Part shown: one piece after another, positions 27,423-45,343 of the stretch | Numbering within the stretch: the stretch's first letter is position 1 | Layout: each line of letters starts with the position of its first letter | Notes under the pieces: model-generated | What the model was told of the DNA's origin: nothing | The model's database searches: none | What the model saw: the letters and a program-made list of their open reading frames with translations, nothing else | DNA from: a virus | Virus record (IMG/VR): IMGVR_UViG_3300009597_000020 | Coordinates: 1-48,555 of that record | Length of the DNA stretch: 48,555 bases | Direction: 5' to 3' (one strand) | Translations under genes and position numbers: made by a program

Positions 27423-28685
27423 TTAGTAACCAGATGGAACAGCAAGCGTATCAATATAACTTGCCGATGCCGGATTATTCATGAACAGGTTAAACGATGC
27501 CACAACGTAGAAAATCCACGCAGTCGCCACGCCACCATCACCCGCGCGAACTTCAAAGACTTTCTTGCCATCATCGGGATTAGCGTAGAATCCAGCAGGA
27601 TGCAATTCCGCGCGGCCCCAAACGTCAATGTCAATAAAGTCAATACGGGTGCGATCCCATGAATAGCTAACTTTCAAAGGCGCACCAGCAATCTGCATAT
27701 TGTCATTGAAATACATATCAAGGCCCTCTTCTTTAGCAGCCTTGTCAATTCTAATGACGTTAAATCCTAGTTCCTCGTATGCAGCACGTTGCGCAGGATG
27801 CGTCCAAGCGGTGCAGCGTCGTTTAGTATTAAGACCAACACGATCGCCGATTTTGTTAATTGCCAACCGAGGCAAAGGCAAAGTCAAAGCCGAACTATTT
27901 GCGTTGACACGATTTGCCCTGATTTCGGGATTAAGCGCACGATCAAAACCAAGCCAGGTCCCAGTACTCGCATTAGAGTCATGATACTTAACTCCTAACA
28001 TTCCAACAGGAGGAGTAGCAGTAAGACCAGAAGTAACAATCAAATCTCCAGCAGTCGCACCAGCTACGGCAGGAGTTACCTTGATTGTATTGTTGGCGAG
28101 ATCATAAAACGTGATAGTAGTTTCACCGCCAGCAGTACGATTAATGGTTAAGGCTGAGTTATAGATGTTTACGTCTTGTCCGAACCTCAACAATCTAGCC
28201 CTGAAACCATCAGTAGTTAGAGTATAAGTATCAACTCCACCAGCGGTTGCTACAGTCGTAATGGTTCCCAAAACTCCGGTACCATCACCCATGCATTGAG
28301 AATCGACGTTGCGTCGAAACTCTTTCATGGAGTCTGCCAACGTATCACGGAATGCATTAATAACAGCTTTACGTTTGTCATCAGTTGACCAAACGGTTTT
28401 AGCCGTCATTTCAATTGCTTCTTCTAGGTGGACCGAATTAATGATAGCCTTATCATAAGTCGGCATGTTACCACGACCCAAAGAACCACCATCAGGATCG
28501 TAGTACTTAAATTTCCCACCAGGGCGCATTTTCAAAGGAATACGCATATCCCTGGACGAGATTACCTCTACATTACGTTTCTCAATAGTACGATAAAACG
28601 TATCATCATAATCAAACAAAGTCGGAACATTTGGAGCTACACGTTCTAGCTCGGCCCCGACTACTTGAGCCTCATTGCCAGCCAT
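27423..28685 (-). CDS. Major capsid protein
   Basis: 420 residues. Supported by place (directly after the scaffold-like gene, before adaptors), size, and pattern: a MPTYDKAIINSVHLEEAIEMTAKTVWSTDDKRK spine-helix region, a long insertion with TTTDGFRARLLRFGQDVNIYN, and a C-terminal DIDVWGRAELHPAGFYANP. I expect an HK97-type fold. CCAGGAG precedes the ATG. A hairpin follows the stop, consistent with high expression. Confidence 0.8.
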   Translation of the reverse strand: MAGNEAQVVGAELERVAPNVPTLFDYDDTFYRTIEKRNVEVISSRDMRIPLKMRPGGKFKYYDPDGGSLGRGNMPTYDKAIINSVHLEEAIEMTAKTVWSTDDKRKAVINAFRDTLADSMKEFRRNVDSQCMGDGTGVLGTITTVATAGGVDTYTLTTDGFRARLLRFGQDVNIYNSALTINRTAGGETTITFYDLANNTIKVTPAVAGATAGDLIVTSGLTATPPVGMLGVKYHDSNASTGTWLGFDRALNPEIRANRVNANSSALTLPLPRLAINKIGDRVGLNTKRRCTAWTHPAQRAAYEELGFNVIRIDKAAKEEGLDMYFNDNMQIAGAPLKVSYSWDRTRIDFIDIDVWGRAELHPAGFYANPDDGKKVFEVRAGDGGVATAWIFYVVASFNLFMNNPASASYIDTLAVPSGY

Positions 28686-28701: not shown

Positions 28702-29928
28702 TTATTTCTTGGTTTTAAGAGTAACGTTACCGTTAATAATGTCAAGCTCTGACGTCTTGCTGTAGTCAATATTTTTAGGGTCATGAACTACAACTTTCCC
28801 ATTTGAAGCTGGTCTTCCAGAAGAACCAACATCACGTCTCGCTTGACCATTCTCAACAATCTCGATCTTCTTAGAGCTAATCTTCGCAGAGGTTCCTAAC
28901 GCCTCCGCAACTAGTCTGCGTCTGATAGATGGAACCACTTGCCTTGCGCGCGCCAGGAACGCGGATGTAATGCTGGACTTATCAGCAGAAGTGTAACCAT
29001 TCTTTTCAGCCTTAGACCATAAGGTACTCATGTACCTCATATGTGATGGATCTTTTTCGAGTACTTTACGTACTTCGACTATAACCTTATCCCTTATTGA
29101 TTCCTTAATGAAATCTGACATTACTTTATCAGGGTCAATTAATTTATCCTTATCACCAACGATATCAGTTACTAAAGAATCATGAATGTTGCTCAAGGTA
29201 TTAACACGGAAATCATTATAACGTTCATTACGCCAATTACTTTCTTCCTCATCAACTTTTTTAACTTCTTCCTTTACTTCTTTTACTGCATTCTTTTTAC
29301 CCTCAGCGACTTCAGCGGTGCCAAAGAGGAACTTCGACAAGCGACGCGCAGCATTCTGATCGTTCTCATCAGTTTCATTGAAAAAGTGTCTTACAACATT
29401 CTGAAGTACTGGGGCAATTGCGTTCCAATGAGCTTCTTTGTCAATTTCAAATAGTGTAGGTAGAAACTTAGATGAGAATCTTTCTAAACCGTTTTCCTGT
29501 TTCAAAGCTGACAGGAATTTAGAACCATCACCAGTGAATACATCGGACCTAATAAGCTCAAACGCCTCATTATTTTCACCGGCTTCCTTAGCATCAGCAA
29601 TCGTTGGGAAGATTTCAGTGTATTCTTTCTCACGATAAATGATGTCCTTGAATACAGGGAAATCCTTTAGAAAATCAGGATACTTTGCACGAATCTGAGC
29701 TAAACTTGGACGCTCATGAGGAGCTAAAGTTTCCTTTGGCTCTTCTTGTTCCTCTTCCTCTAACTTATCTTCTTCTATAGGCTCGTCATCGTTATCGTCG
29801 TCCTCGTTGATTACATCATCAACTTTAGGTTCCTCAACCTTTTCAACAACTTTCTCCTCAGGCTTTTCAGGAGCAACTTTATCATCAATTCCCTGCCCTA
29901 ATATTGCTAATTCTTCTGATGTAGGCAT
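28702..29928 (-). CDS. Scaffold-like protein with very acidic N-terminus
   Basis: 408 residues. Residues about 20-70 are almost entirely Glu, Asp, Lys and Pro. The central part is helical (KEYTEIFPTIADAKEAGE, then many charged heptads), and the C-terminus is basic. It sits directly upstream of the capsid gene. Acidic, helical, and adjacent to the capsid gene is the classical layout of scaffolding proteins, which form the procapsid core and are removed on packaging. GAAGGAA is its ribosome site. Confidence 0.7.
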   Translation of the reverse strand: MPTSEELAILGQGIDDKVAPEKPEEKVVEKVEEPKVDDVINEDDDNDDEPIEEDKLEEEEQEEPKETLAPHERPSLAQIRAKYPDFLKDFPVFKDIIYREKEYTEIFPTIADAKEAGENNEAFELIRSDVFTGDGSKFLSALKQENGLERFSSKFLPTLFEIDKEAHWNAIAPVLQNVVRHFFNETDENDQNAARRLSKFLFGTAEVAEGKKNAVKEVKEEVKKVDEEESNWRNERYNDFRVNTLSNIHDSLVTDIVGDKDKLIDPDKVMSDFIKESIRDKVIVEVRKVLEKDPSHMRYMSTLWSKAEKNGYTSADKSSITSAFLARARQVVPSIRRRLVAEALGTSAKISSKKIEIVENGQARRDVGSSGRPASNGKVVVHDPKNIDYSKTSELDIINGNVTLKTKK

Positions 29929-29991: not shown

Positions 29992-30333
29992 TCATTTTAC
30001 CACCACCGTTACCCCCGCCGGAGGGGTCAGTGCAAAAGGGATTGTAGCTTGAACCGTATTAGAGTTTGCTGATTCAGTCGTAGCATTATAAGAAGTAATA
30101 TGATAATAGAAACTTGCTCCTGAAGTTTGTACTGGCGTTGAACTATCGACGTATGTCAAAGTGTTTATAGGCAATGTAGCAACAATAGTATAAACTCCAG
30201 CAACAGGCGCGCGATAGACTTTAAATCCTGTCGCAGCAGGTCCACCAGCCTGAGTCCATGTCCAATTCAAAGTTACAGAATGACTCTGAGCGAAACAGCT
30301 AACTGAAAATGCAAGAAACAATAAGAATCTCAT
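29992..30333 (-). CDS. Secreted FN3-domain protein
   Basis: 113 residues. Residues 1-16 (RFLLFLAFSVSCFAQ) form a classic Sec signal peptide with a likely cleavage after FA-Q or similar. The rest is one fibronectin type III domain: VTLNWTWTQAGGPAATGFKVYRAP, YVDSSTPV, and ASFYYHITSYNATTESANSNTVQ. FN3 domains often bind glycans or act as spacers. ATGA-coupled to the kelch gene. It could be an envelope or matrix-binding accessory of that protein. Confidence 0.7.
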   Translation of the reverse strand: MRFLLFLAFSVSCFAQSHSVTLNWTWTQAGGPAATGFKVYRAPVAGVYTIVATLPINTLTYVDSSTPVQTSGASFYYHITSYNATTESANSNTVQATIPFALTPPAGVTVVVK

Positions 30334-32717
30334 TTTACGACTACTCCAGTAATAGTTACTTTATTTAACGAGCTTCCAGGAGGCCCAGTACCAGCCTCAA
30401 TCCCGCTCCAATTTGATCCATTCCACGTTTTGGTATAAATTGATCTGAAGGTCCCATACTCTACTTCTGACCATAAGGCAACTACCTGAGAGTTAAGAAT
30501 TGCTAATGATGGGTGAGTTGCTGATCCTTCAGAGGTACTTGCATTAACTGAACCACCTAGATTAGTACAAGAGCCACCCGAGTATTTACCAACAAGGATT
30601 TGACTCTTCTGACCAAAACTAGTTGGTCCTTCCGATTGCTGATTCCCTTGCTCTTCCCAGGCAAAATATAAGTCAGTACCATCATTTATCAAACTAGGAT
30701 GAAATGCCCAACCAGTCGTTGCATCACGATTGAGCGCGCCTGAGCATAAAGTCGTCCAGTTTGTCAAATCTGCCGTAGTCCGTAAATATAACTTAGCCAT
30801 TCCTGTAGCAGTACGCTCGGTTATCATTACGTAAGGCTGACCCATGTAAGTCGAAGAGATTTCATAAGTTCTATTAGAACCACTAACGCTTAATGATCCA
30901 CCCAATGAAACTATCGCCATTCCATCCCAACAGGATGAAAAAGCCTGAGGATTGACGTCAGTTACTCCGTTAGTAATAGTTGTTGTCGTGTACTCGGTCC
31001 AAGCCGCACAGGGGTATGTACCATTAGAAAATAAAGATAGTGATTCAATCTGAGTCTGATTTGATGCATCACCAATACGATTCCAAGCACCACCTAACTT
31101 CTCCCAAGAGTTACCATCCCACTGCAAAACGTATAAGTAAACTCGCGCCGGAGTAAATGCCTCGACCGCGCGCTCCTTAACTATCATTGTAGGAGTTCCA
31201 GCGACATCAATAATCTGACAAGGACCTTGAGTAAAACTTGAGGCTCCTACTGTCAATTGTCCTATTAAAGTACCTTCCCAGGAGTTACCATCCCAACCTT
31301 TTCCAGCAACTTGGTCAAGACCAAATGAGCTATTATTTTGCTGATGCCAACATGCCCAAGGATTACTGCTAATCATCGTAACTGAAATGTCACCACTTTC
31401 TAAATTAGCTGCTCCTGTTGCCATCGAGTTGTAAGCAGAGCCATAATTAGTCGTTGTTGATCCGTTAGTACACTGGACATAAGGCCAAAACCAACGACCA
31501 TCAGTCGCATCCGCAGGGACTCCAGTTTCTACCCAACCTCTGCATAATAGCGTACCATTACTAGCTTGATTAGGACTTTCGGCCCAAGAATCAGAATTAT
31601 GATTCAATGATCCTGCTGGCTTAGTATAAGTTTGACTGGCAGTTCCAGCAGGGGAGCAAGCAATATAACAATATGCCCAAACCTGAGTATCAGCAACAAT
31701 ATTGAATAATACTACTGCTCCCCACTCATCAAAATAAGTCATTCGCTCAAAAGGACCACTTGATGGTGTACTGGGGCTTGCAGCAGGAGTAACTTGAGTC
31801 CAGGATAATGCAACTGGATCGAGAATCCAGGTTTCATTATCGACGCCTCCAGAATCCTCACCACCATACATTAAGAACTTATCTACATTTTTCATGTAAA
31901 CAAATCCAGCCTTTTGTCGTGCTGATGGAGGAGTTCCACTTAAAGTTACAGCAGCCCAAGTTTGTGCATCAGGATTATAAGCAAAAACGGAATTCTTTAA
32001 CGTTCCATCAGTCCCACCGAAAAGATATATTTTTCCGTCTACTGTACGCGTAGCAGTAGAAGCTAATAGCAACCCAGGAGCAGGACAATTTGCAGCAACG
32101 GCAGTACAAGTAACGCCACGCGACCAAGTATTTAAGTCAACATTATAAACATTAGTACCTGTAAATCCAGAATCGCCACCATGCTCAATATGTTGATTTT
32201 GCAATGGGGCAAATGATCCTGCTGGCTGTTGAATATTGTAGTTAGGTTTAGTCGCCATTTCCATGTTGCGACCAGTTTGACCTACAAAGTCATAGAGCCA
32301 TGATGACTGTGGACGTTCTGATACTTGCGAGCCACTGAAGTTGCCATGACCATAAAGAATATTTGACGTAATATCAACTGACGATCCAGCTACGGGATGA
32401 CCACCCTCAGCCATATGCTCATTATGCCATGTTGATGAATTATCCAAAACAACCATTTTATTCTCAGCAAGTGAATAAGTCATCAAAGAACGATTAGGTT
32501 CACTTGATATTTCCCTATAATTGCATACTGCAATGGCAGCATCCAATAAAGGAATAAATTGCAATTTCTCCCAACCAACGCATTTCCATCCTGTAGCTCC
32601 TGATGGAGTCATCTGAGTCCAGGTATTAACCGTAATTGGAACTCCTCCAGCATTTGCTAGAAGATCAGCCCCATAAGTCGGCAGAGCCAACAAAAAGATT
32701 AAATAACAGTTGCGCAT
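30330..32717 (-). CDS. Secreted kelch-type beta-propeller protein
   Basis: 795 residues. Residues about 1-17 (RNCYLIFLLALPTYGAD) are a Sec signal peptide. Around 215-330 are kelch repeats: DGKIYLFGGTDG, NSVFAYNPDAQTW, DKFLMYGGEDSG and ETWILDPVALSWTQV. The remaining 400 residues show further repeats with LYVLQWDGNSWEKLGG, PYVMITERTATG and FYLFAWEEQG-like strands, suggesting a second propeller. Probably binds carbohydrates outside the cell. It overlaps the polysaccharide lyase gene by 19 bases. A galactose-oxidase-like activity cannot be judged. Confidence 0.7.
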   Translation of the reverse strand: MRNCYLIFLLALPTYGADLLANAGGVPITVNTWTQMTPSGATGWKCVGWEKLQFIPLLDAAIAVCNYREISSEPNRSLMTYSLAENKMVVLDNSSTWHNEHMAEGGHPVAGSSVDITSNILYGHGNFSGSQVSERPQSSWLYDFVGQTGRNMEMATKPNYNIQQPAGSFAPLQNQHIEHGGDSGFTGTNVYNVDLNTWSRGVTCTAVAANCPAPGLLLASTATRTVDGKIYLFGGTDGTLKNSVFAYNPDAQTWAAVTLSGTPPSARQKAGFVYMKNVDKFLMYGGEDSGGVDNETWILDPVALSWTQVTPAASPSTPSSGPFERMTYFDEWGAVVLFNIVADTQVWAYCYIACSPAGTASQTYTKPAGSLNHNSDSWAESPNQASNGTLLCRGWVETGVPADATDGRWFWPYVQCTNGSTTTNYGSAYNSMATGAANLESGDISVTMISSNPWACWHQQNNSSFGLDQVAGKGWDGNSWEGTLIGQLTVGASSFTQGPCQIIDVAGTPTMIVKERAVEAFTPARVYLYVLQWDGNSWEKLGGAWNRIGDASNQTQIESLSLFSNGTYPCAAWTEYTTTTITNGVTDVNPQAFSSCWDGMAIVSLGGSLSVSGSNRTYEISSTYMGQPYVMITERTATGMAKLYLRTTADLTNWTTLCSGALNRDATTGWAFHPSLINDGTDLYFAWEEQGNQQSEGPTSFGQKSQILVGKYSGGSCTNLGGSVNASTSEGSATHPSLAILNSQVVALWSEVEYGTFRSIYTKTWNGSNWSGIEAGTGPPGSSLNKVTITGVVVK

Positions 32718-35122
32718 CCTGCTCCTGTCGCTGTTACAGTCCCACCAACGCCATTCTTAGGTTGAGTTATCGTTACCAAACAAGTATTACTATTGTATTG
32801 TAAAGTCGTTACCCAATTTGTACCACTTGACACGGTTGCAGGAGCAGTACTAATTAAATTTGCACCTTTTGCACTAGCAAAATAAGTCACACTAAACCAA
32901 TCCTCTAGTGCTGCTGAATTAGGAGTAATTTCTAATCTCCATCCTCCAGGCTCATGAGGTGCCGTTGCTGGATCAGAAGCTATGTAATTATCGACAGGCC
33001 CAGTACCCTCAGCAGCAGTACATTGCTCGGAGCCATAGTAGCCACATTGATCATAGTTAGTAGCTCCAATCCTGAATTCAAAACCAGCACCACCAACTTT
33101 AGTAATTGTGTGTGCCGCAGGGAGAGTGACATAACAATTTAGTTCACCATCATACTGATAAGTACTGATACTAGGATCATGTGTCAACAAAGCAGCCCAC
33201 TTCTGGGGCCATAAATCTGGAAACGGCTTACTAGTTATCAAATCGTCTCTTAGAATTGTGCAATGACTAGCAGTAACAGAAGGCTCATTGACACTATGAA
33301 GTAAACTAGTTTTCACAAATGTCGAGTTTGATGATACAACATGATCCTGAATGTGAATAATTGCAGCAGTCCCAACAGGTATAAATGTAAAGGTCCTTAC
33401 TGCATTCTTAACCCTGTAGCTCCTATTAATTGTATTCGCTTGTCGAACCTGAAAATCCCCAGAGTGCACACCGTGACTCCAAGTATTATTGTAGGCTGCC
33501 GTAATATCACAAGCAAGATATGAGTAAGAAGCCCCAGGACTATAAGCTATCATTCTACCCTGATGGTACCATTCCCAACCTCGATGATGCTGCGAAGGAT
33601 CTAATGGGCTTCCTTGATAAGTACTTGTTGGCGCAATATTGCTCAAATCGCTGCCAACACGCCGTTGACCACCATCATTAGGCATTGCAGCAGTAAAGTC
33701 CATTCCATCTGCACCACGAAATGTATAAAGCTCTCCAACATATACATCACTAGGATCATTAACTAATAGAGTATTCTTACTAATTGCCTGTAATCCATAC
33801 GCTTGCCAATGTGGTGAATTACTACCAGGACGATAACTACCTCCTGCAATAGCCAACGCACCACGATTAAATATTGTAAATGCCCCTGCATTAGCTAAAG
33901 GATGCGACCAATAATTATTCCCACCACAAGCGACAGTCATATGGGTATCGTCTTCAGTCCAGCCAGTTTTTAGTATAGTAGTGTCCATTCCTGGAAAGTG
34001 CTTAACTTTTGCTAGTGTCGATCTGTCGGTTGCTGTTAGACTTGAACTATCAGGAGTAAACCAAGGCCACGTAGAAGGCTCATAACCATCAGGAGCAGCA
34101 TTGTTCCAGTTTGATAGCCTCGACCAGCCGCGCAACACAGTATCATTATAAATCGCTGCTAGTCCGTCTAATGAACCTAAATAAGCACCCGCACCAGGAC
34201 CATCATATTCTTGTGTATAATAAGGGCGTGCGATAGCTTGGAGATTATCAAGATTCATATCAGGGCGAGTCTGATACATATTTTGATATGCCCAGTTCTT
34301 CAGCCAAGGCTCATCAGTTGTAAAATAAGCAGTACCACGACCTGAAGCATTGGCCCAGGCTAACGTCGAAGTAACGTACCAAGATTTTAGGCCCAAAACT
34401 TGATTAGTGTACTCTTCAGCTTCTGGCCACATTCCTCCGCACCTTGGAGAATCTGTTATAGAAGCAGTGGAACAGCCAAAAACTTGCTTCCATGCTGGAA
34501 TAAGCATGTTAAACCATACATCTAAAGACCAACGTAAATGAGGCAGAGAAGTCGCCGCATCATCAGGGTAAATTGCCAAGGCAGCAACTAAGTGGATCAT
34601 CTGACGAAACCCAGTGATATAAAACTGATCATTATAAGGACTTGATCCTGTATAATTCCCCTCAAAATACGTCATCATTGTATAAAGAGCAGTTCGACAG
34701 TTTGTGCGCGTCGTGCCATCAAGATCGTTATAAATCCAATCGTAGCCTAAAGCGACTCCCATTGACGCAAGCCAACTACCTTCAACCTCATAATCCCAAC
34801 CTCCATTTAGCTCGTTCATCGTTTCTTTGATTTTAACGAGCCAGGCTGCATTATTAGGGCCTGCATTTTGCTTGTCTGCTAAGTATGCCGTTAAAAGATA
34901 ACGCCAATTGATTAATGTCCCTGGGGCATCAGCATCCCAATTATTCGCGGCATCGGCATAACGAGTAATCATTGTTCCTGAATTGTAAATAGTATTCAGG
35001 AATAGCGTTGTTGGAGATCCTAGTCTTGGGTGAGTCGTGACATAGGTACTCGGCAAAGTAGGAGCATGATCTCCTACGGCTGCTAGTAATGGGATAGAAG
35101 CTAAGAACAAAACTAATCTCAT
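32699..35122 (-). CDS. Secreted heparinase II/III-like polysaccharide lyase
   Basis: 807 residues. Residues 1-16 (RLVLFLASIPLLAAVG) form a Sec signal peptide. The N-terminal half is helical, with LGYDWIYNDLDGTTRTN, as in alpha/alpha-toroid lyases. Residues about 375-430 (FPGMDTTILKTGWTEDDTHMTVACGG and NYWSHPLANAGAFTIF) and SKNTLLVNDPSD resemble the heparinase II/III catalytic and beta-sandwich region. A C-terminal beta domain follows. It probably cleaves acidic polysaccharides by beta-elimination. As a capsule or biofilm depolymerase it would help phage spread; but the signal peptide means it is exported from the infected cell. Family assignment is from recognised patterns, not an alignment. 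Confidence 0.65.
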   Translation of the reverse strand: MRLVLFLASIPLLAAVGDHAPTLPSTYVTTHPRLGSPTTLFLNTIYNSGTMITRYADAANNWDADAPGTLINWRYLLTAYLADKQNAGPNNAAWLVKIKETMNELNGGWDYEVEGSWLASMGVALGYDWIYNDLDGTTRTNCRTALYTMMTYFEGNYTGSSPYNDQFYITGFRQMIHLVAALAIYPDDAATSLPHLRWSLDVWFNMLIPAWKQVFGCSTASITDSPRCGGMWPEAEEYTNQVLGLKSWYVTSTLAWANASGRGTAYFTTDEPWLKNWAYQNMYQTRPDMNLDNLQAIARPYYTQEYDGPGAGAYLGSLDGLAAIYNDTVLRGWSRLSNWNNAAPDGYEPSTWPWFTPDSSSLTATDRSTLAKVKHFPGMDTTILKTGWTEDDTHMTVACGGNNYWSHPLANAGAFTIFNRGALAIAGGSYRPGSNSPHWQAYGLQAISKNTLLVNDPSDVYVGELYTFRGADGMDFTAAMPNDGGQRRVGSDLSNIAPTSTYQGSPLDPSQHHRGWEWYHQGRMIAYSPGASYSYLACDITAAYNNTWSHGVHSGDFQVRQANTINRSYRVKNAVRTFTFIPVGTAAIIHIQDHVVSSNSTFVKTSLLHSVNEPSVTASHCTILRDDLITSKPFPDLWPQKWAALLTHDPSISTYQYDGELNCYVTLPAAHTITKVGGAGFEFRIGATNYDQCGYYGSEQCTAAEGTGPVDNYIASDPATAPHEPGGWRLEITPNSAALEDWFSVTYFASAKGANLISTAPATVSSGTNWVTTLQYNSNTCLVTITQPKNGVGGTVTATGAGCATVI

Positions 35123-35886
35123 TGCAATGTCGCCCCAATAATATTGGTGTACCCAGTCCCAGTGATCGCCATATCAGGAGTATACATATTCCCAGTACAT
35201 CCACTTGCACAAATCAAATATTCCATATACAAAGATCCAGGTGTTCCATCTGTGCCACTTGCTGCTGTCCCTCCCATTGGGATTGTAAAGCCAGAGCCAG
35301 CAGCCGCTGTATCTGCAAAATAGTAGTTAGATACAATACCCACTACTACTTCTGGCGATGTTGATGGTGTCATACTACCGCTACATACAATTGTTGCTCC
35401 TGATCCGGTCCCCGAACAGGTTTGATCCAGGGAGCTAACGACAGTGAATTGCATCGCGCCCATCCCAGCTGTACTCCATCCAGTGGAACTCGCTGTGATG
35501 ATGTACGAATTGCTAGTAGCCCCCGCGATACCGAAGGCACGATACACGATAGTACATTGGAATGCCTGAGCAACCGAACTTCCGATTTGAGTGAATGTGT
35601 CTCCACTTGGACTTCCACCAGCCGTACTTGCCAATGTTGGCGTAGGAACGGAACATCCGGCTCCAGTTGAATAGGAAACAAGGACTACTAATGCATTCCC
35701 TGCTGTAGTATTAAATCCAGTCAATGTGAAATCAGTAACGAGAACAGCCCCAGTAAGAGATGTCGCATTCACGAAAGCAGGAGACGCACCGCCAGCCGTA
35801 GATGCGCGTCCAGGGCCTGGGAATGGAATCTGTGCGGAAAATAATCCGTGCCAGAAGAGTAGAACAATCTGAATGAAGCTCAACAT
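35119..35886 (-). CDS. Secreted Ig/beta-sandwich-like protein
   Basis: 255 residues. Residues 1-18 (LSFIQIVLLFWHGLFSAQ) are a probable signal peptide. A proline/glycine linker follows, then a Ser/Thr/Gly-rich beta protein (NALVVLVSYSTGAG, SNSYIITASSTGWS, SPEVVVGIVSNYYFAD). Similar compositions occur in bacterial cell-surface beta-sandwich proteins. Cysteine pairs in CSVPTP, CSGTGSG and CASGC suggest disulfides, which agrees with a periplasmic or extracellular fate. ATGA-coupled to the lyase. Confidence 0.6.
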   Translation of the reverse strand: MLSFIQIVLLFWHGLFSAQIPFPGPGRASTAGGASPAFVNATSLTGAVLVTDFTLTGFNTTAGNALVVLVSYSTGAGCSVPTPTLASTAGGSPSGDTFTQIGSSVAQAFQCTIVYRAFGIAGATSNSYIITASSTGWSTAGMGAMQFTVVSSLDQTCSGTGSGATIVCSGSMTPSTSPEVVVGIVSNYYFADTAAAGSGFTIPMGGTAASGTDGTPGSLYMEYLICASGCTGNMYTPDMAITGTGYTNIIGATLQ

Positions 35887-36929
35887 TATCTAACCACTCT
35901 CCAATTAAGAGTGACTGCCCCAGGAGTAATACTAGAGCCACTTGGATTACAAACTTTAATGTTCAGTGTGTTAGAAGTCAACCAAGTATAAATTGCTAAT
36001 CCTCCAGTAGTTTCTGGAGCATAACCAACCACAGCAGTAATATCAGCATTAGGTGTAATAACTACTACATCAGTTGTAGCTGCTCCTGTAGCAGTGTCCG
36101 TCATTGTATCACATGCTTCAGATGCTATTGCATCAGTATCTAATGCTTTTGCGCCAGATGCAATAGTTAACGTACAAGTCGGGCATTCAGTACCAGTTAC
36201 TAATCCAAATGATTCTGTAGCAACTACTCCAGATACAGCAACTTTAACTACTCCAGCGACGCCAATAGTACCGGGTTTAATTCTCCGATATGAAGTAATC
36301 GCCGCCGGGGCGATTTCCTGGATACCATCAGCACTCTGACCAGCAGGAGCAGTCCCCTCATGATAAATGATACAACTAGCAGTCCCATCACAAGTAGCAT
36401 CTGCCGCGCCACCTGTTGATAAACTTGCTGGAATAGTAACATTCCCTGAGTCATCAACGATTACACCACTATCCTGGAGAAGTAATCCAGTGACCCCATC
36501 ATAACGTGCTAACGCATTATCAGTTGCAGACCCAGGACCAACGACATCACCAGAACCAGTTGCAGCATTACCTAAAGTTGACTGCATCTGCATGTTTGTG
36601 CCGTCATAGTTCAAAACTACAACTTGACCGACACGAATATCATTATTTGCTAAGGTCGTTGTTATTCCACCAACGACTTTAACGATAGTTTTTGCTGCCA
36701 TCCCATTATAGCTAATCGTTGCTGCTCCAGTATTAGCAGTATTAGCTTTGAAGGAATAAATCGCACCTGTAACGTAAATTCCAGGTGCAGATGATAAGTT
36801 GCAAGCATACGAATCCGTCCCACCTGCATCAGCACAGTAAGTATTAGCTAATCCAATACGCTCTACTGCCGTGACGTTCTGACCAATTGCAGGAATCGTT
36901 AGTAATAAAAGTAAAAATAATTTTTTCAT
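35886..36929 (-). CDS. Tail-fibre-like protein carrying a signal peptide
   Basis: 347 residues. Residues 1-17 (KKLFLLLLLTIPAIGQ) form a textbook Sec signal peptide. The body carries two motifs I associate with phage tail fibres: YSFKANTANTGAATISYNG...VVVLNYDGTNMQM near 60-115, and GDVVGPGSATDNALARYDGVTG near 130-150, followed by a DDSGNVTIP repeat. The C-terminal half has TCDGTASCIIYHEG and other Cys pairs (CDTM, CPTC). A fibre with a signal peptide is unexpected because fibres assemble in the cytoplasm. ATGA-coupled to the preceding gene. Confidence 0.65.
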   Translation of the reverse strand: MKKLFLLLLLTIPAIGQNVTAVERIGLANTYCADAGGTDSYACNLSSAPGIYVTGAIYSFKANTANTGAATISYNGMAAKTIVKVVGGITTTLANNDIRVGQVVVLNYDGTNMQMQSTLGNAATGSGDVVGPGSATDNALARYDGVTGLLLQDSGVIVDDSGNVTIPASLSTGGAADATCDGTASCIIYHEGTAPAGQSADGIQEIAPAAITSYRRIKPGTIGVAGVVKVAVSGVVATESFGLVTGTECPTCTLTIASGAKALDTDAIASEACDTMTDTATGAATTDVVVITPNADITAVVGYAPETTGGLAIYTWLTSNTLNIKVCNPSGSSITPGAVTLNWRVVR

Positions 36930-37417
36930 ATTGTTTGTACCGTGGCCCCAAATGTTAGTGCCCCAAGATTAATTGGTGCCCCACTCATGTTTAAAAGTCT
37001 CACAGTTATAGTATCAGCAGCAGAGACAAACATCATTCCAAGTAATCCAGCAGTAAGAGCTGAAGGCCATGCAGGATTAACTGACATTCCTGCTACTGCC
37101 CCAACTAATGCAAATGTCAACTCATCCATCAAACCGTCTTGAATCTCAGCAAAGTTCAATGACGCTGATCCTGAAATTCCAGCAGAAACTATAGGATTCG
37201 CAGGATCAGTCGCATCGACAGTAATACCATCACCCGCAACAACTGCATCGACTTGGCCAGAACCTCCAGTGGCAATTAATGTCCAAGCTCCAGTGACATC
37301 ATCAGTATAATACAAATCACCAGTAAGGAAATCTATTGCAAACTTATGCCTTGATAATCCAGTAGGAACACCAAGATAGGCCTGAACATTTGTTGGGTCA
37401 AGAACTAGAGTAGCCAT
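36926..37417 (-). CDS. Tail-fibre-associated beta protein, no signal peptide
   Basis: 163 residues. The opening is LVLDPTNVQAYLGVPTGLSRHKFAIDFLTGDLYYTDD, followed by a Gly-rich turn and VAGDGITVDATDPANPIVS, a motif common in phage fibre proteins. No signal peptide. Its last base pairs overlap the signal-peptide fibre gene by ATGA, making a fibre-gene pair. Likely a fibre or fibre-base component; inferred. Confidence 0.55.
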   Translation of the reverse strand: MATLVLDPTNVQAYLGVPTGLSRHKFAIDFLTGDLYYTDDVTGAWTLIATGGSGQVDAVVAGDGITVDATDPANPIVSAGISGSASLNFAEIQDGLMDELTFALVGAVAGMSVNPAWPSALTAGLLGMMFVSAADTITVRLLNMSGAPINLGALTFGATVQTI

Positions 37418-37767
37418 TAGATTGACTCCACATTAATCGTATAAGGCATTGATGCTGCCGAGCCTTTGACGTAGTAATCTTTTAAGCAGATTGAGTTTCT
37501 TGACGAACGACTAATAAAAGGATCAGCAGTCGCAAGCATCGTGAATCCGCCAGTTAATTTCCAGTCGCTTACAGTAATAGTATCAGTTCCCGTTGCCTGA
37601 GACTTAATCTGAAGCTCGCAAACTCGATCAGTTTGGATTGCATTATTCTTAACAGCAGTAATAAGAATTTCACCAAGCCTATTAATGAATCCTCCAGCAA
37701 TCAAGGAGTCCCAAATAGAATGAAAATCAGTATCCGCTGGCAATGTAATAGTGTACGTTGCGTGCAT
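37417..37767 (-). CDS. Small hypothetical virion protein after portal
   Basis: 116 residues, beta-rich by eye, starting HATYTITLPADTDFHSIWDSL. No signal peptide or zinc motif. Shares a single base with both neighbours at start and stop. It is the first gene after the portal; possibly a minor head or fibre component. No family recognised. Confidence 0.55.
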   Translation of the reverse strand: MHATYTITLPADTDFHSIWDSLIAGGFINRLGEILITAVKNNAIQTDRVCELQIKSQATGTDTITVSDWKLTGGFTMLATADPFISRSSRNSICLKDYYVKGSAASMPYTINVESI

Positions 37768-40013
37768 TATTGTTGTCCTTTCGGAGGTAGTGCTTGACCT
37801 TGTGGTTCAGCAGGAGCTATCATTGCCATTTGCTGAGCTTCAAGCTGAACATGCAATTGAAGATGCTGGAATAACAGACTATAGGCCATAGGATCAGTTT
37901 CTTTTAACATTAGTCCTAACTCCGACACCATATAATTTCTAACAGTCTCAGCATGAATTGCATTATCGTCTACGTCCTGTTCAGGCTCGATGAATAATTT
38001 TGTTGAAATCATTTCATTGATCTCACGCATTTGCTTAATGCGTTGATCTTCACCAGGCATCTTGAACTCAGTCATTCCAAATGCTTGACTTATCAATGAA
38101 CGATTAGGAGTATCAAATAGTGCAGCATTGATTTCTTCTGACTGTAATTGGAACAAGCTCATCAATAATGTCTGCTTTTGAGCCATGCTGATTGGGAATG
38201 ATTCATCACCTTCAGGCTCAACCTCACCAACCTTACCTGTCATTTCAGCGCGCTTGATCCAAACGTTAGCGTAACCACTCTTGGACTGTGAATCTTTCTG
38301 AGTGAACTTTTCATCCTCGACTAAATTCTCTGCATAAAGTCTTACTGACTTTTGCATTAAGTTGCACCAGAAGAAGTTTAGAAGGGACCAAATGATGCTC
38401 AACCTTTGAAGAGCCATTTGACGGCTCATGTTGTATTCTGATGCCGTCCTTGAGTTACCCTCACCAGGTCCGCCATAAATTGATGGGAACGAGCCAACTA
38501 CAAATTGACCATCATGATCTAAGTTCTGAACGAATACTGGCACTTCCTTGGATAATGTCGCTCTATCCTGAGTATAGAACGAATTCGCTAGATTCTCCCC
38601 AGGCGCGCGTTTGGCGGGATAAATCGTCCCAGGTCGCGCTTCATGTTTCCCGTATACGTCAAAGTTAAGAGTCTTAGGATCAGCAAAACCTGAGGGAATT
38701 CCACTTTCAATTGTTTCTAAGGTTAGATTAGTAGTTACGTTCCTCATCTCCTGAACTGGAGCTAACGGCTGTCCTATTGGATCAGAGTGAATGTAACGAC
38801 TTAGGCCAGCTTGCCCAACAGTCCAATAGGTGTCCATGTTCTCATCACGAGACTCAATGTAAGTACGGCCAATTAGACAAACGTAACAACCTTCAGGGAA
38901 TAATGCTTTTAGTTCATTTGCTTCTTTTTCTTGTGATTCGGGCAAGTCATCGAATACACAAGGACGGAACCAAACTCGCTTCAATGTTGCTAAGTACCGA
39001 TCGCCGTCCATGTTGTAAGAATAGGCACTAGGGCTACGACCAATTCGCTCATAAGATCCAGCATCTTCTGAACCATCGTTGTCAATTTTTTGAGCTAGAT
39101 CGTAATCGAACTTACCATCCTTATTGCAGAAGATTGATTTCAGGAATGATTTAGGCTGATCGAGTGCAAGAATTAAAGAAGGAAAGTCTTTCTGCTCGCG
39201 CGCGTAATAAGAAACCTTAACGTTCAACGGACCAAAAATGTCAATCTTCACGCGCATCTTTGGAGCAGTTTTGAATCCGTCCAATATCGGAGACGATTGC
39301 ATCGGTATTTCTTGCGGAGGCATTCCTTGAGCTTCGTCACCTTGCGCGCACTGAGGACAATTCATCTGTCCAGGTAATTCATTAGAATCCAAAAGACCAG
39401 GATCACTCCCGCCGTTATTAATGTCAGCTTCGCCATTAGGAACATAACCGCATTCAGGACACTGTAGTCCATCCTTATATTGGGGTATCTGAAGGTTACC
39501 AAAAGCCTTATCAAACTTGGGCGCGTGATAAGCGAATACTGAGCCTTGATTCCATAGCATTAATAAGGCTTGCAAAAGGACGCGCTTACCTTGATTATGA
39601 CGTGTAATTAAATCGGCAATCTTGTTGTAAGTTTTGCTTGTCTCACAATCTTCAACTGAATCAGCATCATCAGGGGGAAACCTGACCGCTGGAATCTGGG
39701 CGGACAAAGCAGCAATAATAGCTTCACCATGAGCTTTGTAAATGTTGATAACGTAGTCGTAGAAGGGCTGGTTGCTGTTTTCATCGTCTTCACCATTGAA
39801 GAATGATGTTTCTATTGGTGCCATCCAATCTTGATTAGCTTCAGACCAGAAGATAAATTGAATGCCGTGCCAGAATCTTTCGAGCTTTTTCCACTGCATG
39901 ATCTGGCGCTTACGAACCCAAGAATTCTCCTGCTCATGCTTATGCACAAGATCAATGAGAATGTCCTGAAGATTCTCAGGGAGGGATTCGTTATTCTTAC
40001 CGTAGTTTTTCAT
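37767..40013 (-). CDS. Portal protein with internal zinc ribbon
   Basis: 748 residues, the expected place and size for a podovirus-type portal. The N-terminus (VRKRQIMQWKKLERFWHGIQFIFW) is typical of P22-like portals. A loop around 165-225 has CPECGY and CPQC pairs that form a zinc ribbon, unusual in portals. The C-terminal third is helical with Gln-rich tail (LQLHVQLEAQQMAM). The ring drives DNA packaging and ejection. No Shine-Dalgarno precedes the ATG, and the 50 bases upstream form a long hairpin. Confidence 0.75.
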   Translation of the reverse strand: MKNYGKNNESLPENLQDILIDLVHKHEQENSWVRKRQIMQWKKLERFWHGIQFIFWSEANQDWMAPIETSFFNGEDDENSNQPFYDYVINIYKAHGEAIIAALSAQIPAVRFPPDDADSVEDCETSKTYNKIADLITRHNQGKRVLLQALLMLWNQGSVFAYHAPKFDKAFGNLQIPQYKDGLQCPECGYVPNGEADINNGGSDPGLLDSNELPGQMNCPQCAQGDEAQGMPPQEIPMQSSPILDGFKTAPKMRVKIDIFGPLNVKVSYYAREQKDFPSLILALDQPKSFLKSIFCNKDGKFDYDLAQKIDNDGSEDAGSYERIGRSPSAYSYNMDGDRYLATLKRVWFRPCVFDDLPESQEKEANELKALFPEGCYVCLIGRTYIESRDENMDTYWTVGQAGLSRYIHSDPIGQPLAPVQEMRNVTTNLTLETIESGIPSGFADPKTLNFDVYGKHEARPGTIYPAKRAPGENLANSFYTQDRATLSKEVPVFVQNLDHDGQFVVGSFPSIYGGPGEGNSRTASEYNMSRQMALQRLSIIWSLLNFFWCNLMQKSVRLYAENLVEDEKFTQKDSQSKSGYANVWIKRAEMTGKVGEVEPEGDESFPISMAQKQTLLMSLFQLQSEEINAALFDTPNRSLISQAFGMTEFKMPGEDQRIKQMREINEMISTKLFIEPEQDVDDNAIHAETVRNYMVSELGLMLKETDPMAYSLLFQHLQLHVQLEAQQMAMIAPAEPQGQALPPKGQQ

Positions 40014-40019
40014 TTTATT

Positions 40020-40063
40020 AATGAGGGTAATGAGAAGCCGACTAGAAACTCACTACCCTCATT
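40020..40063 (-). promoter_or_regulatory. Long hairpin just upstream of the portal start
   Basis: Bases 40020-40029 pair perfectly with 40054-40063 (10 pairs). After one mismatch, 40031-40034 pair with 40049-40052. The loop is 14 bases. On the minus strand the 3' arm ends about seven bases before the portal ATG and no T-run follows, so it is unlikely to be a terminator. It may control portal translation or mRNA processing. Confidence 0.6.
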
Positions 40064-40082
40064 TCATCTTAGCTCGCGAATA

Positions 40083-40823
40083 CTAAGACAAAGGCTGTAC
40101 GTAAATTACCATGATGTCAATGATTCCAGCAGTCAATGCTGCAACTGTTGAAGTAATTGTTAATGTCCCTGCTGCACTCATGAATACCGGAACAGCATTA
40201 GTCGGAACTAGAGGAGTGATTCCAGAAGGTCCTCCAGTATTCAAGGTTGCAATTGCTGTTGATGCGACTAATGCTGTAGCCGAAGATCCGGCAGAAGTAC
40301 CTACTCCTACGGCTGTTGCTGTTGCAAGAGCAGTAGATACACGAATAACGCCACCAATAATAATAGCATTTTTAGGAATTGTATCCGATTGTGCAAGAGT
40401 AATCAATCCAGGCGCGCCACCACCGTCAACAGCGAAGGAATAACGACCGCGCGCGAAACGAACGCCATCGAGAATGACTTGACCTGAGTTGCCTGCAACA
40501 AGGCTAGTTCCAATATCAGTAATTGCATTTCCTGTTACTGAGCCAAGGAAAATAGTACCAACAGTTGGAAGAGTAGTAGAAGTACTACGATAGACATTAT
40601 AGCCAATCGCTCCGGACATTGCATTCCATTGAACTAAGATGCAATTGTTACGATCCAAAGCAGCAATAGCAGTAATTAGATTACTAATTGCTAATTCTGA
40701 GCGACCGGAAGGATAAATTGCCTGAATAAAGTAGTAGTATGCTGTAGCTCCACCAGCAGTACCAAAATACGTTGCGAGTACGCCTGTCGGGGCAGGAATC
40801 AGGACCGACATGTTAATTGCCAT
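40083..40823 (-). CDS. FN3-like N-terminal structural protein near portal
   Basis: 246 residues with AAAGGAG before the ATG. The first about 90 residues have an FN3-like pattern: ATAYYYFIQAIYPSGRSELAISN, then ILVQWNAMSGAIGYNVYRS. The remainder is Ala/Thr/Val-rich, beta-like (GGVIRVSTALATATAVGVGT). No signal peptide. Between TerL and portal, it may be a head decoration or fibre component. FN3-type domains on capsid proteins are known to bind surfaces weakly. Confidence 0.6.
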   Translation of the reverse strand: MAINMSVLIPAPTGVLATYFGTAGGATAYYYFIQAIYPSGRSELAISNLITAIAALDRNNCILVQWNAMSGAIGYNVYRSTSTTLPTVGTIFLGSVTGNAITDIGTSLVAGNSGQVILDGVRFARGRYSFAVDGGGAPGLITLAQSDTIPKNAIIIGGVIRVSTALATATAVGVGTSAGSSATALVASTAIATLNTGGPSGITPLVPTNAVPVFMSAAGTLTITSTVAALTAGIIDIMVIYVQPLS

Positions 40824-40884
40824 TTGTTTCTCCTTTGTTACTTGCTTTTATTGCATACTAATTAAGGATTGAGCAAGTGAAACC

Positions 40885-41025
40885 TTAATAAGTTTTACCT
40901 TTCTTCTTCATCATTGCTTTTGCAAAATTATTGCCTTTTTTTGGCTTTGAAACTTTTTCCTTAGACTTCACAACAGGAGATCCAGCAGCAGCCTCGAATA
41001 ATTTAAAGTTCATTTTACCTGACAT
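40885..41025 (-). CDS. 46-residue Lys-rich small protein
   Basis: ATG 41025 lies just inside the preceding gene's end. The product is dominated by Lys (SPVVKSKEKVSKPKKGNN, then KKKGKTY) and may bind DNA or act as a packaging accessory. No family recognised. The coupled start supports it. Confidence 0.5.
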   Translation of the reverse strand: MSGKMNFKLFEAAAGSPVVKSKEKVSKPKKGNNFAKAMMKKKGKTY

Positions 41026-41350
41026 CCTTATGTCTCTCCTTGATTATTGCCTGATCCTTACGTCGCATTTCAGCTTTTACACTATTCCAATTTCGTGCAC
41101 CATGAATTGGTTGATAGTCCTTCTGCTCATCAATTCCTATACTAGATATCGAGCCACCTGCAATAAATCCTGTTTTTGTGAATATCAAATCCTCAAGATA
41201 ATTAATCCGCTGTTGCCTCATATCACATTGATTAATTAGGAATGTATTATTAGCGTACATTACCTCACGATCTTTATTAGCCAAGTCAAAGACTAATTGA
41301 AAATCGCGCTCGTTTACGCCGCCAAGAAGAGAAATGAGCCAGTTTCTCAT
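41015..41350 (-). CDS. Hypothetical protein after TerL
   Basis: 111 residues, ATGA-coupled to TerL. Mostly helical (VFDLANKDREVMYANNTFL) with a Gly-Ser loop near the middle and a basic C-terminus. No motif. May be a packaging or portal accessory. Confidence 0.55.
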   Translation of the reverse strand: MRNWLISLLGGVNERDFQLVFDLANKDREVMYANNTFLINQCDMRQQRINYLEDLIFTKTGFIAGGSISSIGIDEQKDYQPIHGARNWNSVKAEMRRKDQAIIKERHKDVR

Positions 41351-42948
41351 GCGACCATCCTTCGATGGAATCTTTTTATTGGACGTTCACTAACTGCATG
41401 TTTCTCCAGCCGACGCATATTGATATAATAACTAGTCATATCACGAGTCTGCTCAAGATTTTGAATAGTCCTTGCTACCCTAAGATGAAATTCCTGTTCA
41501 GTTTTTCCGTCACCTTTGAATCTATCAGCAGCTTCTACTAAGTACCTGAAGGCATCATAAGGATCATCACCAGGAAACTCTGCTACGTCCTCAGTATTCT
41601 TGTCATCGTAAACACAAAGTGGAATTGCCTTACGAAGTTCGACGCATTCACGGAATATCTGAACCTTAGGAAGATTAGTTTCAGGCTTCTCTGGCTCAAA
41701 GGATACTAAGTAATCTTTATAAGCGTCTAGTCCTACTTGTCGCAGGATTGTTTGGGCAGTATCAGGGTTATAACCTTGGGCCTCGATTTTACGAGCAGGC
41801 TTCGCGCGCCACCTAAAGTATTCTTGCAATAAGAGTTTACCTGCAACGCGTCGATTATCAGCGAGGCGAGGACGTAAACCTGAATAACTCTCAAATTGTT
41901 CGGCAATTGAACTGTCCTCCCCTCTATTCTGCCATGCTGATTGGCACATTACGATATCAGAATAATTTTCGCCTTCTGACAAGCGACCAATATTCGTTGA
42001 CCAATCTGATATTTTGGTTTGCTTGCAGGAGTACTCTCGGTAAATATACAATCTACTCTCAGGACTCATTGCACCCCAAAGAGCAACTGTCATTGCAGAG
42101 TATCCCCAATCAATAGCTAAAAATTTCGGCCACCATTTGGGGATTTCTATGGCATCAATTACATGTTGCGCATTCTCAGGCTCGTCTTTGAACTTCTCTT
42201 CACGATAATCATCAAAGACCTGACCACTGAACGTCCACCAATCGCCGTCAGCTTTTGCGCGCCTATCCTTTTCAGGCATCATCTGAAGTTTCATCGCATA
42301 AAGCGGATCGTTCTTCATCAGATGCGGATTGTCTGTTAGTTTAGCTTGGATGAAAATTCGTTTTAGTTTGGTTACCTTATCAATGATTATAGTGCCATAT
42401 GGTGCAGGCTCAACGAAACGCGCACGAACCCAACCATGACCAACACCGCCAGGATTAGTACCAGAGCGCATGAAAGCAGGAAGATTATCTGAAGAACTAC
42501 GGCAACGACTGAAGAGATAAGTGTATTGATACTCTGTGAACGATGTAAGCTCATCATATCCGATGTAATTGTATTCTGCTGAGTCGTATTTCTTTACATC
42601 ACTATCATATTCAATGTGACCAAACTGAATCATCGAGCCATTTGGGAATGCCCAACGTTTCTTTTCCTGATTGTATTTACCGCCAAAGTGCGCGTAGGAA
42701 GGACCTCCTGAACCAATACCGTTTTGTGACCGAACAATTAATTCAGCTTCGAGTTCAGGATAAGTCCTTCTCAATAACAATGCCTTGAACTTAGGGTGCT
42801 TGTAAAACTCGCGCACCATCGGTAACATGAGGAGCGCGTCGGATTTACCACCTCCGGCCGCGCCCCCATACATTGCCTCAAATATGGAATCCGGCAGAGA
42901 TAGGAATTCACTCTGCTTTTTATTCGGTTTCCATATTAAATCTGCCAT
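41347..42948 (-). CDS. terL: Terminase large subunit
   Basis: 533 residues. The ATPase Walker A is GGAAGGGKS at 28-36; the Walker B is IGYDELTSF (D134, E135). The nuclease domain begins with LAIDWGYSAM (D282) and ends with the DDPYDAFRYLVEA acidic helix near 465. It pumps DNA into the head and cuts it. The TerS-like gene lies 2.4 kb upstream, separated by membrane-protein genes. No Shine-Dalgarno is obvious. It shares an ATGA overlap with the next gene. Confidence 0.92.
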   Translation of the reverse strand: MADLIWKPNKKQSEFLSLPDSIFEAMYGGAAGGGKSDALLMLPMVREFYKHPKFKALLLRRTYPELEAELIVRSQNGIGSGGPSYAHFGGKYNQEKKRWAFPNGSMIQFGHIEYDSDVKKYDSAEYNYIGYDELTSFTEYQYTYLFSRCRSSSDNLPAFMRSGTNPGGVGHGWVRARFVEPAPYGTIIIDKVTKLKRIFIQAKLTDNPHLMKNDPLYAMKLQMMPEKDRRAKADGDWWTFSGQVFDDYREEKFKDEPENAQHVIDAIEIPKWWPKFLAIDWGYSAMTVALWGAMSPESRLYIYREYSCKQTKISDWSTNIGRLSEGENYSDIVMCQSAWQNRGEDSSIAEQFESYSGLRPRLADNRRVAGKLLLQEYFRWRAKPARKIEAQGYNPDTAQTILRQVGLDAYKDYLVSFEPEKPETNLPKVQIFRECVELRKAIPLCVYDDKNTEDVAEFPGDDPYDAFRYLVEAADRFKGDGKTEQEFHLRVARTIQNLEQTRDMTSYYINMRRLEKHAVSERPIKRFHRRMVA

Positions 42949-42951
42949 TGT

Positions 42952-43113
42952 TTATCTCGCGAATATCTTAATGACTTGCTCTGCGCCTAGTAATATAGCA
43001 AGCAAAGCAAAGGCAAACATTATACGCCCAATCTCTACAATTTTAGCATCCTTACCTAATACATACATAAGCAAGCCAACAATGAGAACTGCGAGTTGGA
43101 AGGAAACAATCAT
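42952..43113 (-). CDS. 53-residue two-span membrane protein, holin candidate
   Basis: ATG 43113 overlaps the preceding TGA. Residues about 3-18 (VSFQLAVLIVGLLMYV) and 30-45 (RIMFAFALLAILLGAE) are hydrophobic helices joined by a short basic loop with KDAK. This fits small class II holins or other membrane regulators. Located directly before TerL. Confidence 0.55.
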   Translation of the reverse strand: MIVSFQLAVLIVGLLMYVLGKDAKIVEIGRIMFAFALLAILLGAEQVIKIFAR

Positions 43114-43550
43114 ACAACTGGCTCAGGAGGCGGAGGAGGAACTTCAGGATTGCTCTTTGCTGCAATTGCCTGAAGTACAGGAACCTGAGCATTAAGAGCA
43201 GTAACTGCTGCATCAGAAGCGTCGGAGGATGCTTGCAGTTTATCTGCTGCGGACTGCAATAATGCTGCTGCTTCTGCTGACAACTGGCCACCAGCAATCA
43301 AACGATCAATGTCATCACTAATTTCCTGAACTACGTCTGCTTGTGCTTGTACTGCTGTTCCTATTGTTGCGACGTTACTACCTATCTTAGTCGTAGTAGC
43401 GTCTACTTTTCCCAACAATGCCTTCAGTTCTTGATCAGTCACTTTTAGCTCCTTTAATGATTGTTTAATTTCCAATAATAATTGCATGATCTTTTCTGAC
43501 GAATCAAAACCATGCAGATGAACGTCTATTCTAGTGTTATCTTCACGCAT
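43110..43550 (-). CDS. Coiled-coil protein of the membrane-protein cluster
   Basis: I take ATG 43550 (overlapping the previous stop by eight bases); an in-frame ATG at 43619 would extend it into the previous gene. The product is 146 residues: an amphipathic coil (EKIMQLLLEIKQSLKELKVTDQELKAL), an Ala/Ser/Val-rich repeat of about 70 residues, and a Pro tail (PPPPPEPVV). The pattern resembles phage proteins with a coiled rod and an anchor. Function unknown. Confidence 0.55.
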   Translation of the reverse strand: MREDNTRIDVHLHGFDSSEKIMQLLLEIKQSLKELKVTDQELKALLGKVDATTTKIGSNVATIGTAVQAQADVVQEISDDIDRLIAGGQLSAEAAALLQSAADKLQASSDASDAAVTALNAQVPVLQAIAAKSNPEVPPPPPEPVV

Positions 43551-43911
43551 CTTTTTCAACCTTGTCAATAGGCTCAAGACGAGTTTCTTTAGTAGTTTCA
43601 ATTGTCTTGGTTTTCCCATCGCCTGTACCAGTTGTTACAGTTTGCGTCATTTGCATGACTTCTTTATATTCTGGTAAAGGCTTAACTGTTAAAAACTTTG
43701 CAACTTCTAATATTGCTGAGGTCATTCCCAAGGCAAAGATTGCTATATAATACTTTAACTCAAAAACATTAAAATCGTTTGAGTCTAGGGAAGGCAGAAC
43801 AATTGCCCCTGAAATTGACGATGCTGCTCCTGAGATACCAGCGGATATTAAACCACGCAACCATCCTTGAAGGTCCAGGGCGCGCGCGTTATTGACCAAT
43901 CCCATCATCAC
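43543..43911 (-). CDS. Membrane protein, holin-like
   Basis: 122 residues with GTG start at 43911 or ATG at 43908, both reached from GAGGG. Residues about 16-40 (GWLRGLISAGISGAASSISGAIVLP) and 53-72 (YYIAIFALGMTSAILEVAKF) are hydrophobic; the tail is Thr/Lys-rich and cytoplasmic-like. The 'GWL.GLIS..ISG.AS..SG..V' pattern occurs in holin-like proteins of soil phages. Confidence 0.55.
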   Translation of the reverse strand: MMMGLVNNARALDLQGWLRGLISAGISGAASSISGAIVLPSLDSNDFNVFELKYYIAIFALGMTSAILEVAKFLTVKPLPEYKEVMQMTQTVTTGTGDGKTKTIETTKETRLEPIDKVEKDA

Positions 43912-44195: not shown

Positions 44196-44201
44196 TTTTC
44201 A

Positions 44202-45223: not shown

Positions 45224-45251
45224 TATTATTAGCTTCGAGAACTATTAGCAA

Positions 45252-45321: not shown

Positions 45322-45343
45322 TTGTCGCAAAATGAATGACAAA

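Follow-up and report, generated by a model that had tools for sequence, protein, structure and literature searches.

The window analysed here is the whole 48,555-base stretch of the IMG/VR virus record IMGVR_UViG_3300009597_000020 (GC (guanine plus cytosine) content 41%), and the subject is a set of five consecutive genes located among its head genes. Five minus-strand open reading frames (ORFs), starting at positions 36929, 35886, 35122, 32717 and 30333, are present between a portal-like and a scaffold-like gene. At three of their junctions (36926-36929, 35119-35122 and 30330-30333) the overlap is of 4 bases; it is of 19 bases at 32699-32717, and at 35886 there is a contact of a single base. 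Since the junctions overlap, the start codons of the five genes are fixed, and the genes are translationally coupled. A preliminary description had placed five genes joined by overlaps or 1-base contacts at these positions, between portal and scaffold. Both points were borne out, and two genes without signals (37417-37767 and 36926-37417) were found to separate the portal from the first of the five. The GC content of the five genes, overall and at third codon positions (GC3), was like that of the phage core genes.

Signal peptides were evaluated with our own scorer of n-, h- and c-regions, which considers the charge of the n-region, an 8-residue hydrophobic core and the -3/-1 site. The first gene (35886..36929; all five on the minus strand) encodes a protein of 347 amino acids (aa) with the predicted signal MKKLFLLLLLTIPAIG^Q, in which ^ marks the cleavage site, a tail-fibre-like domain at residues 29-112 and a fibre/H-type-lectin-like domain at residues ~250-347. 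The 255-aa protein of the second gene (35119..35886) has a lectin-like composition and an atypical signal, MLSFIQIVLLFWHGLFSA^Q, with no basic n-region. It is followed by an 807-aa homologue of heparinase II (HepB)-like polysaccharide lyases (32699..35122; signal MRLVLFLASIPLLA^A), a 795-aa protein with Kelch beta-propeller repeats and an unassigned C-terminal half (30330..32717; signal MRNCYLIFLLALPTYG^A) and a 113-aa protein with a single FN3-like domain (29992..30333; signal MRFLLFLAFSVSCFA^Q). Gln was thus present at +1 in three of the five. Signal-type n-, h- and c-regions with a small-residue -3/-1 site were determined in four of the five (scores 4.8-6.6): 6.55, 5.69, 4.78 and 5.48 for the 347-, 807-, 795- and 113-aa proteins, respectively. 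Signal peptides had previously been assigned to all five; this held for these four, whereas the 255-aa protein failed the scorer, though its homologue has a good signal with a basic n-region. After the cleavage site, the maximal 19-residue hydropathy of the 113-, 795- and 347-aa proteins was 1.35-1.66, indicating no further transmembrane segment.

All seven signal peptides from E. coli that served as known positives were recognised by the scorer (scores 4.0-7.0). From phage lambda it picked exactly Lom, Rz and Bor, and from T7 one borderline protein (gp14). Over the 59-gene list of the window, four genes of the set were flagged and no other gene reached 4.7 (4/5 vs 0/54, Fisher p about 1e-5). 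With an alternative ORF set of the window, one more was flagged, a 53-aa membrane-like ORF at 42952-43113. The background, determined from 18 related genomes and the window, was about 3% signal-bearing proteins among those of at least 200 aa. In Tunturi_3, an isolate phage of Acidobacteriota, none of the 28 virion-module genes was flagged, annotated tail fibres included, which rules out that all phages of Acidobacteriota carry such signals.

Two further properties of the proteins point to export. In the signal-bearing phage proteins, the predicted site was [AGSC]^Q in 23 of 35, compared with 24 of 36 (67%) for a Granulicella plasmid and 1 of 11 (9%) for S. meliloti pSymB. When divergent homologues were aligned, the small-residue^Gln site was invariant and the hydrophobic run variable. 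The median content of Cys per 100 aa was 1.9 in signal-bearing proteins of at least 200 aa vs 0.6 in low-charge fibre-like proteins without a signal (p 3e-6). Compared with other proteins, the signal-bearing ones were twice as rich in Cys. A high Cys content is expected in signal-bearing proteins because they would be oxidised outside the cytoplasm.

The preference for Gln at +1 of signal peptidase I substrates, the Q-rule, has been described for Bacteroidetes, with Acidobacteria not mentioned (PMC5837995). The host of the window phage is probably a member of Acidobacteriota (or Bacteroidota). As a separate observation, two thirds of the predicted signal peptidase I substrates of the Granulicella tundricola plasmid pACIX901 (L145-L164) have Gln at +1; this single plasmid suggests that the Q-rule extends to Acidobacteriota.

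The likely contents of the set, as far as sequence comparison can tell, are a fibre/lectin-like binder (347 aa), a lectin-like protein (255 aa), a heparinase-II-like lyase homologue (807 aa), a Kelch protein (795 aa) and an FN3-like protein (113 aa). Residues 29-112 of the 347-aa protein matched the solved tail fibre gp47 (PDB 9b45, E 0.0012), and for its C-terminal 120 residues homology was found to fibre-like proteins of relatives that likewise bear a signal (E 1e-5 to 1e-6). The AlphaFold2 model of this C-terminal domain, built from four sequences, had a predicted local distance difference test (pLDDT) value of 68; block values put it at about 80 across the domain. It retrieved viral fibre domains from BFVD (E 2e-4 to 8e-4) and, weakly, tailspikes, R-pyocin fibres and H-type lectins from the PDB, where fibres and H-type lectins gave only E values above 0.1. 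The earlier idea of a modified fibre system finds some support in this protein. The 255-aa protein contains 6 Cys and under 5% charged residues; it matched no library family. A homologue was found in G023/L173, an unrelated phage (28% over 192 aa, E 2.6e-8), and the signal of this homologue is typical.

The 807-aa protein matched heparinase II (PDB 2fuq, phmmer E 8.6e-18) over residues 382-625, with a weak trace of the N-terminal helical region. The match to NCBIfam HepB NF045571 had an E of 5.5e-25, yet its 87.4 bits were far below the equivalog cut-off of 600. In the alignment, one His before the AGAF motif is kept and others are replaced. A single-sequence AlphaFold model of this protein was set aside (mean pLDDT 34). 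The Kelch repeats of the 795-aa protein were recognised by Pfam PF24681 (E 7e-18, 65.1 bits vs a cut-off of 50) and PF01344 (42.7 vs 20.1 bits). The 113-aa protein gave a weak fn3 match (E 0.03) and shared 42% identity with a signal-bearing G023 protein of 111 aa (E 6.5e-10), the FAQ site being invariant; matches to DUF963 and a ClC channel were dismissed as chance. Near the terminase of distant relatives, signal-bearing proteins of ~120 aa were also observed (L003:7389-7760, L006:5386-5754, L051:1561-1926, L033:777-1145); by eye they are FN3-like and similar in design to the 113-aa protein.

Scanning of IMG/VR with a capsid alignment (A2) resulted in 252 relatives, of which 80 were kept. In most of them, about 70 of those with both genes visible, portal and scaffold are directly or nearly adjacent (gap 1.1-1.8 kb, approximately the length of the scaffold gene). 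The nearest relatives differ in having a wider gap. The relatives with a 72-75% identical capsid protein encode divergent signal-bearing tail-fibre-like proteins, in three of four cases at the same portal-scaffold site. In L011, L012/G003 and L013, this site holds a homologue of the 116-aa window gene and then a gene for a large protein in which a Sec-type signal is combined with the phage-fibre motifs GGDLSGTYPNP, TLTNKT and TTAGDIIYGG; L172 is arranged in the same way. In L010, the signal-bearing fibre-like protein is encoded downstream of the tail genes, and in other relatives the signal-bearing proteins are encoded before or after the terminase. The fibre-like proteins of the nearest relatives share 20-35% identity, and the signal is kept in all of them. 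Signal genes were adjacent to each other in 6 pairs vs 0.8 expected (0 of 1000 permutations).

The N-terminal fibre module was aligned (A4, 'APSGSC...GxLYSCxSGTW'; +1 Gln invariant in the three N-termini aligned), and a scan with A4 found further phages. L173/G023 (58.5 kb, GC 56%) gave no match to the terminase, capsid and portal models of the window; its late module has an unbroken run of five signal-bearing genes (39771-45484), a further two lie at 670-1344, and the phage shares the 255-aa and 113-aa families with the window. Signal-bearing fibre-like proteins were also present in L174, L176/G026 and L177/G027, one of those of G027 with a GDSL-esterase-like insert (E 1e-6, just below the Pfam cut-off). 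Among all phage proteins in the dataset, those with the fibre module had a signal at the start in 11 of 11 cases; nearly all 11 have Gln at +1. Eight of these proteins had not gone into the model, and in two the module lies further inside the protein, at residues 94-164. The count of 11 of 11 is strong evidence but not clean statistics, because the 11 are non-independent homologues and the A-Q site was itself part of one of the two patterns searched with.

Used as sole queries against the sequence collections, the 807-, 795- and 255-aa proteins matched nothing (PLSDB was scanned with the 807-aa protein only), and the tblastn search of INPHARED gave small partial or weak matches only. The proteins of the set are therefore essentially absent from described phages. 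The same five-gene order, for which a search of other phages had been proposed, was not found in the sequences searched; what recurs in virion modules is the fibre module behind a Sec signal, with several such genes in a row.

The fibres of tailed phages are assembled in the cytoplasm, and their secretion is not expected. The reading we favour is based on gene order, signal-like N-termini, homologies and the recurrence in other phages. It holds that the set is a late-expressed, Sec-exported cargo of fibre-derived and glycan-active proteins which works outside the cell of a host that probably belongs to Acidobacteriota, and we consider it reasonably probable. Of its parts, true export of the proteins is very likely, and a fibre- or glycan-directed function is likely. 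A specific extracellular benefit, such as matrix clearing or receptor masking, is put forward tentatively. The preliminary description had suggested an exported polysaccharide-degrading or surface-binding set; the lyase homologue and the fibre/lectin-like binder make this the best-supported reading, and its extracellular part stays at the level of a proposal. These viruses would then probably act on their surroundings via free proteins besides virions.

According to the proposed mechanism, an accessory export cassette inserted between the portal and scaffold genes would be expressed along with these genes in the late phase of infection. After entering the host Sec pathway, each protein would be cleaved by signal peptidase I, in most cases with Gln as the new N-terminus. 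Folding of the mature proteins would take place outside the cytoplasm, probably with formation of disulfides, and they would reach the outside at the latest on lysis. The fibre- and lectin-like proteins may then bind sugars of the host surface or matrix, and the heparinase-II-like protein may depolymerise an acidic polysaccharide. The gain could be exopolysaccharide loosened and/or receptors occupied round the dying cell, favouring the escape of progeny without re-adsorption to debris or superinfection. What we infer in this scheme is that the proteins are really secreted and form disulfides, together with their substrate, the benefit, the late co-expression and the Acidobacteriota host.

Several points weigh against this reading. 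The signal calls were made with a home-made scorer from sequence, and the signal of the 255-aa protein is weak: the n-region has no positive charge, Q and H occur within the hydrophobic run, and the signal ends with FSA^Q. The likeness of the 807-aa protein to heparinase II is mainly in the C-terminal half, and its catalytic site is putative. The step across the outer membrane has no explanation, and the need for export is not obvious as lysis frees cytoplasmic fibres anyway. The capsid alignment matched no relative, and no prophage, in 85,000 bacterial genomes that would point to a host.

The main rival to the export of free effectors supposes that the fibre-like protein, and perhaps others, are virion parts that are sent to the periplasm to be oxidised there and join the particle at lysis or later; the signal would then serve folding rather than an extracellular task. 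The position of the genes in the late operon beside head genes, the phage-fibre motifs together with the fibre-like fold predicted for the C-terminus, and the Cys enrichment, which fits periplasmic folding, all agree with it. However, the N-terminus of the 347-aa protein is the signal itself, and searches of Pfam, PHROGs and NCBIfam recognised no virion-attachment domain. The neighbouring lyase, Kelch and FN3 proteins are atypical of fibre parts, the close relatives G005 and G006 lack any signal-bearing fibre, and a low-charge fibre-like protein without a signal, encoded at 20522-21985 of the window, could be the receptor-binding protein. We regard virion fibres of this kind as unlikely.

It is improbable that the five are moron or auxiliary metabolic genes of host origin, i.e. 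secreted host proteins picked up for carbon acquisition or without special use. The heparinase-like and Kelch proteins are indeed of host type, one relative encodes a PEP-CTERM protein, and active carbohydrate-active enzyme (CAZyme) genes are known in soil phages (PMC9485262, PMC6172770). On the other hand, phage-fibre modules, not host enzymes, make up several of the signal-bearing proteins, among them the first of the five, and the recurrent clustering suggests selection as a set. The GC and GC3 values, which match those of the phage core genes, give no support to a recent capture of host genes. Less probable still is that the hydrophobic N-termini are membrane anchors, virion-assembly helices or results of wrong starts. 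Some phage virion proteins do have hydrophobic N-termini, as the borderline T7 gp14 illustrates, but the starts are fixed by overlapping stop and start codons, and an invariant small-residue^Gln site follows hydrophobic runs of variable sequence. Moreover, the 113-, 795- and 347-aa proteins contain no further transmembrane segment, and the site preference resembles that of the exported proteins of Granulicella.

Known phage depolymerases are synthesised in the cytoplasm, are not known to carry a Sec signal and are freed by lysis. The set resembles free and virion-bound phage polysaccharide depolymerases (tailspike lyases, plaque-halo enzymes) in having glycan-active or glycan-binding proteins with fibre-type C-terminal domains among virion genes, but here a signal precedes the fibre module. 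With lambda Lom, Bor and superinfection-exclusion lipoproteins it shares the Sec signal on a phage product acting at the host surface; those are single small morons, whereas the present genes, which follow one after another, encode large multidomain fibre-like and enzyme-like proteins. Heparin lyase II (HepB, polysaccharide lyase family 21) is secreted in its source organism; the homology to it covers residues 382-625 only, with 87 bits vs 600. Another likeness is to CAZyme genes of soil viruses, such as the V-Csn chitosanase (PMC9485262), since a carbohydrate-active enzyme homologue is carried by an uncultured soil phage. Unlike V-Csn, whose description does not mention secretion or periplasm (PMC9485262), the set comprises five exported-type proteins with phage-fibre modules within a head-gene operon.

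Signal-bearing tail fibres, or multi-gene cassettes of them in unrelated phages, were not found described in the literature search, nor were any found among annotated phages. The preliminary claim that no such system had been described is correct for the exact five-gene make-up, which was unique among the sequences searched; the general architecture recurs in uncultured soil phages. Precedents exist for exported phage proteins, for free depolymerases and for soil viral CAZymes; the new element is the Sec signal before tail-fibre modules in shared cassettes, which could form a class of its own if secretion were shown. The prospect is nearly even that they represent an undescribed effector class, one in which tail-fibre modules have been converted to extracellular proteins that are secreted via Sec, are stabilised by disulfides and, together with glycan-active enzymes, form an exported cassette shared and shuffled by unrelated Acidobacteriota-type soil phages, which would serve host-matrix remodelling or receptor masking round the lysing cell. 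If true, fibre modules behind Sec signals in soil phages would be an extracellular arsenal apart from the virion, with consequences for the dispersal of biofilms, the control of superinfection and the turnover of polysaccharides in soil. The combination of a signal peptide, a fibre module and Gln at +1 would be a simple genome signature that can be tested for, and could hint at which phylum an uncultured phage infects.

The late operon of the window runs leftward from about 45880 to 15655, and the other half consists of rightward early genes, encoding an SNF2 helicase, a PD-(D/E)XK nuclease, an AAA ATPase, a ParB/methylase, a UDG (uracil-DNA glycosylase)-DNA polymerase A and a GH108 endolysin. 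No integrase was recognised among the window genes scanned, and the phage therefore looks lytic. The terminase is recognisable (phrog_979, E 2e-45). The major capsid protein (27423..28685; phrog_14242, E 2.6e-10; 51-57% to the first relatives) and the 408-aa, K/E-rich scaffold-like protein (28702..29928; matches in 86 loci) are both encoded on the minus strand. The 748-aa portal-like protein (37767..40013, also minus strand) is 32-37% identical to the equivalent gene product in relatives and present in 83 related loci. The portal and the scaffold matched no library family, and their names are derived from order, size and relatives. Of the two minus-strand genes between the portal and the set, that of 116 aa (37417..37767; no signal) has matches in L010, L011 and L013 and is kept after the portal in relatives, directly before their signal-bearing fibre gene. 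The other (36926..37417) encodes a 163-aa low-charge structural-type protein with no signal and no family match.

Some further genes were observed in the window and its relatives. The protein encoded at 20522-21985 of the window is of 487 aa, low-charge, fibre-like and Cys-rich (11 Cys), with no signal and no homologue in relatives, and is a candidate virion receptor-binding protein. At 10935-13385 of the window, a single ORF fuses the uracil-DNA glycosylase domain to DNA polymerase A. A PurD-like (GARS, ATP-grasp) gene, absent in the window, is located between cargo and scaffold in many relatives (L011:7360-8676, L013:7529-8758; L012 and L014-L017 by similar N-termini). Two signal-bearing phage proteins appear to be exosortase substrates: that of L021:2776-3426 has a PEP-CTERM-like C-terminal sorting signal, and that of L066:200-922 has a weakly VPDSG-CTERM-like C-terminal end.

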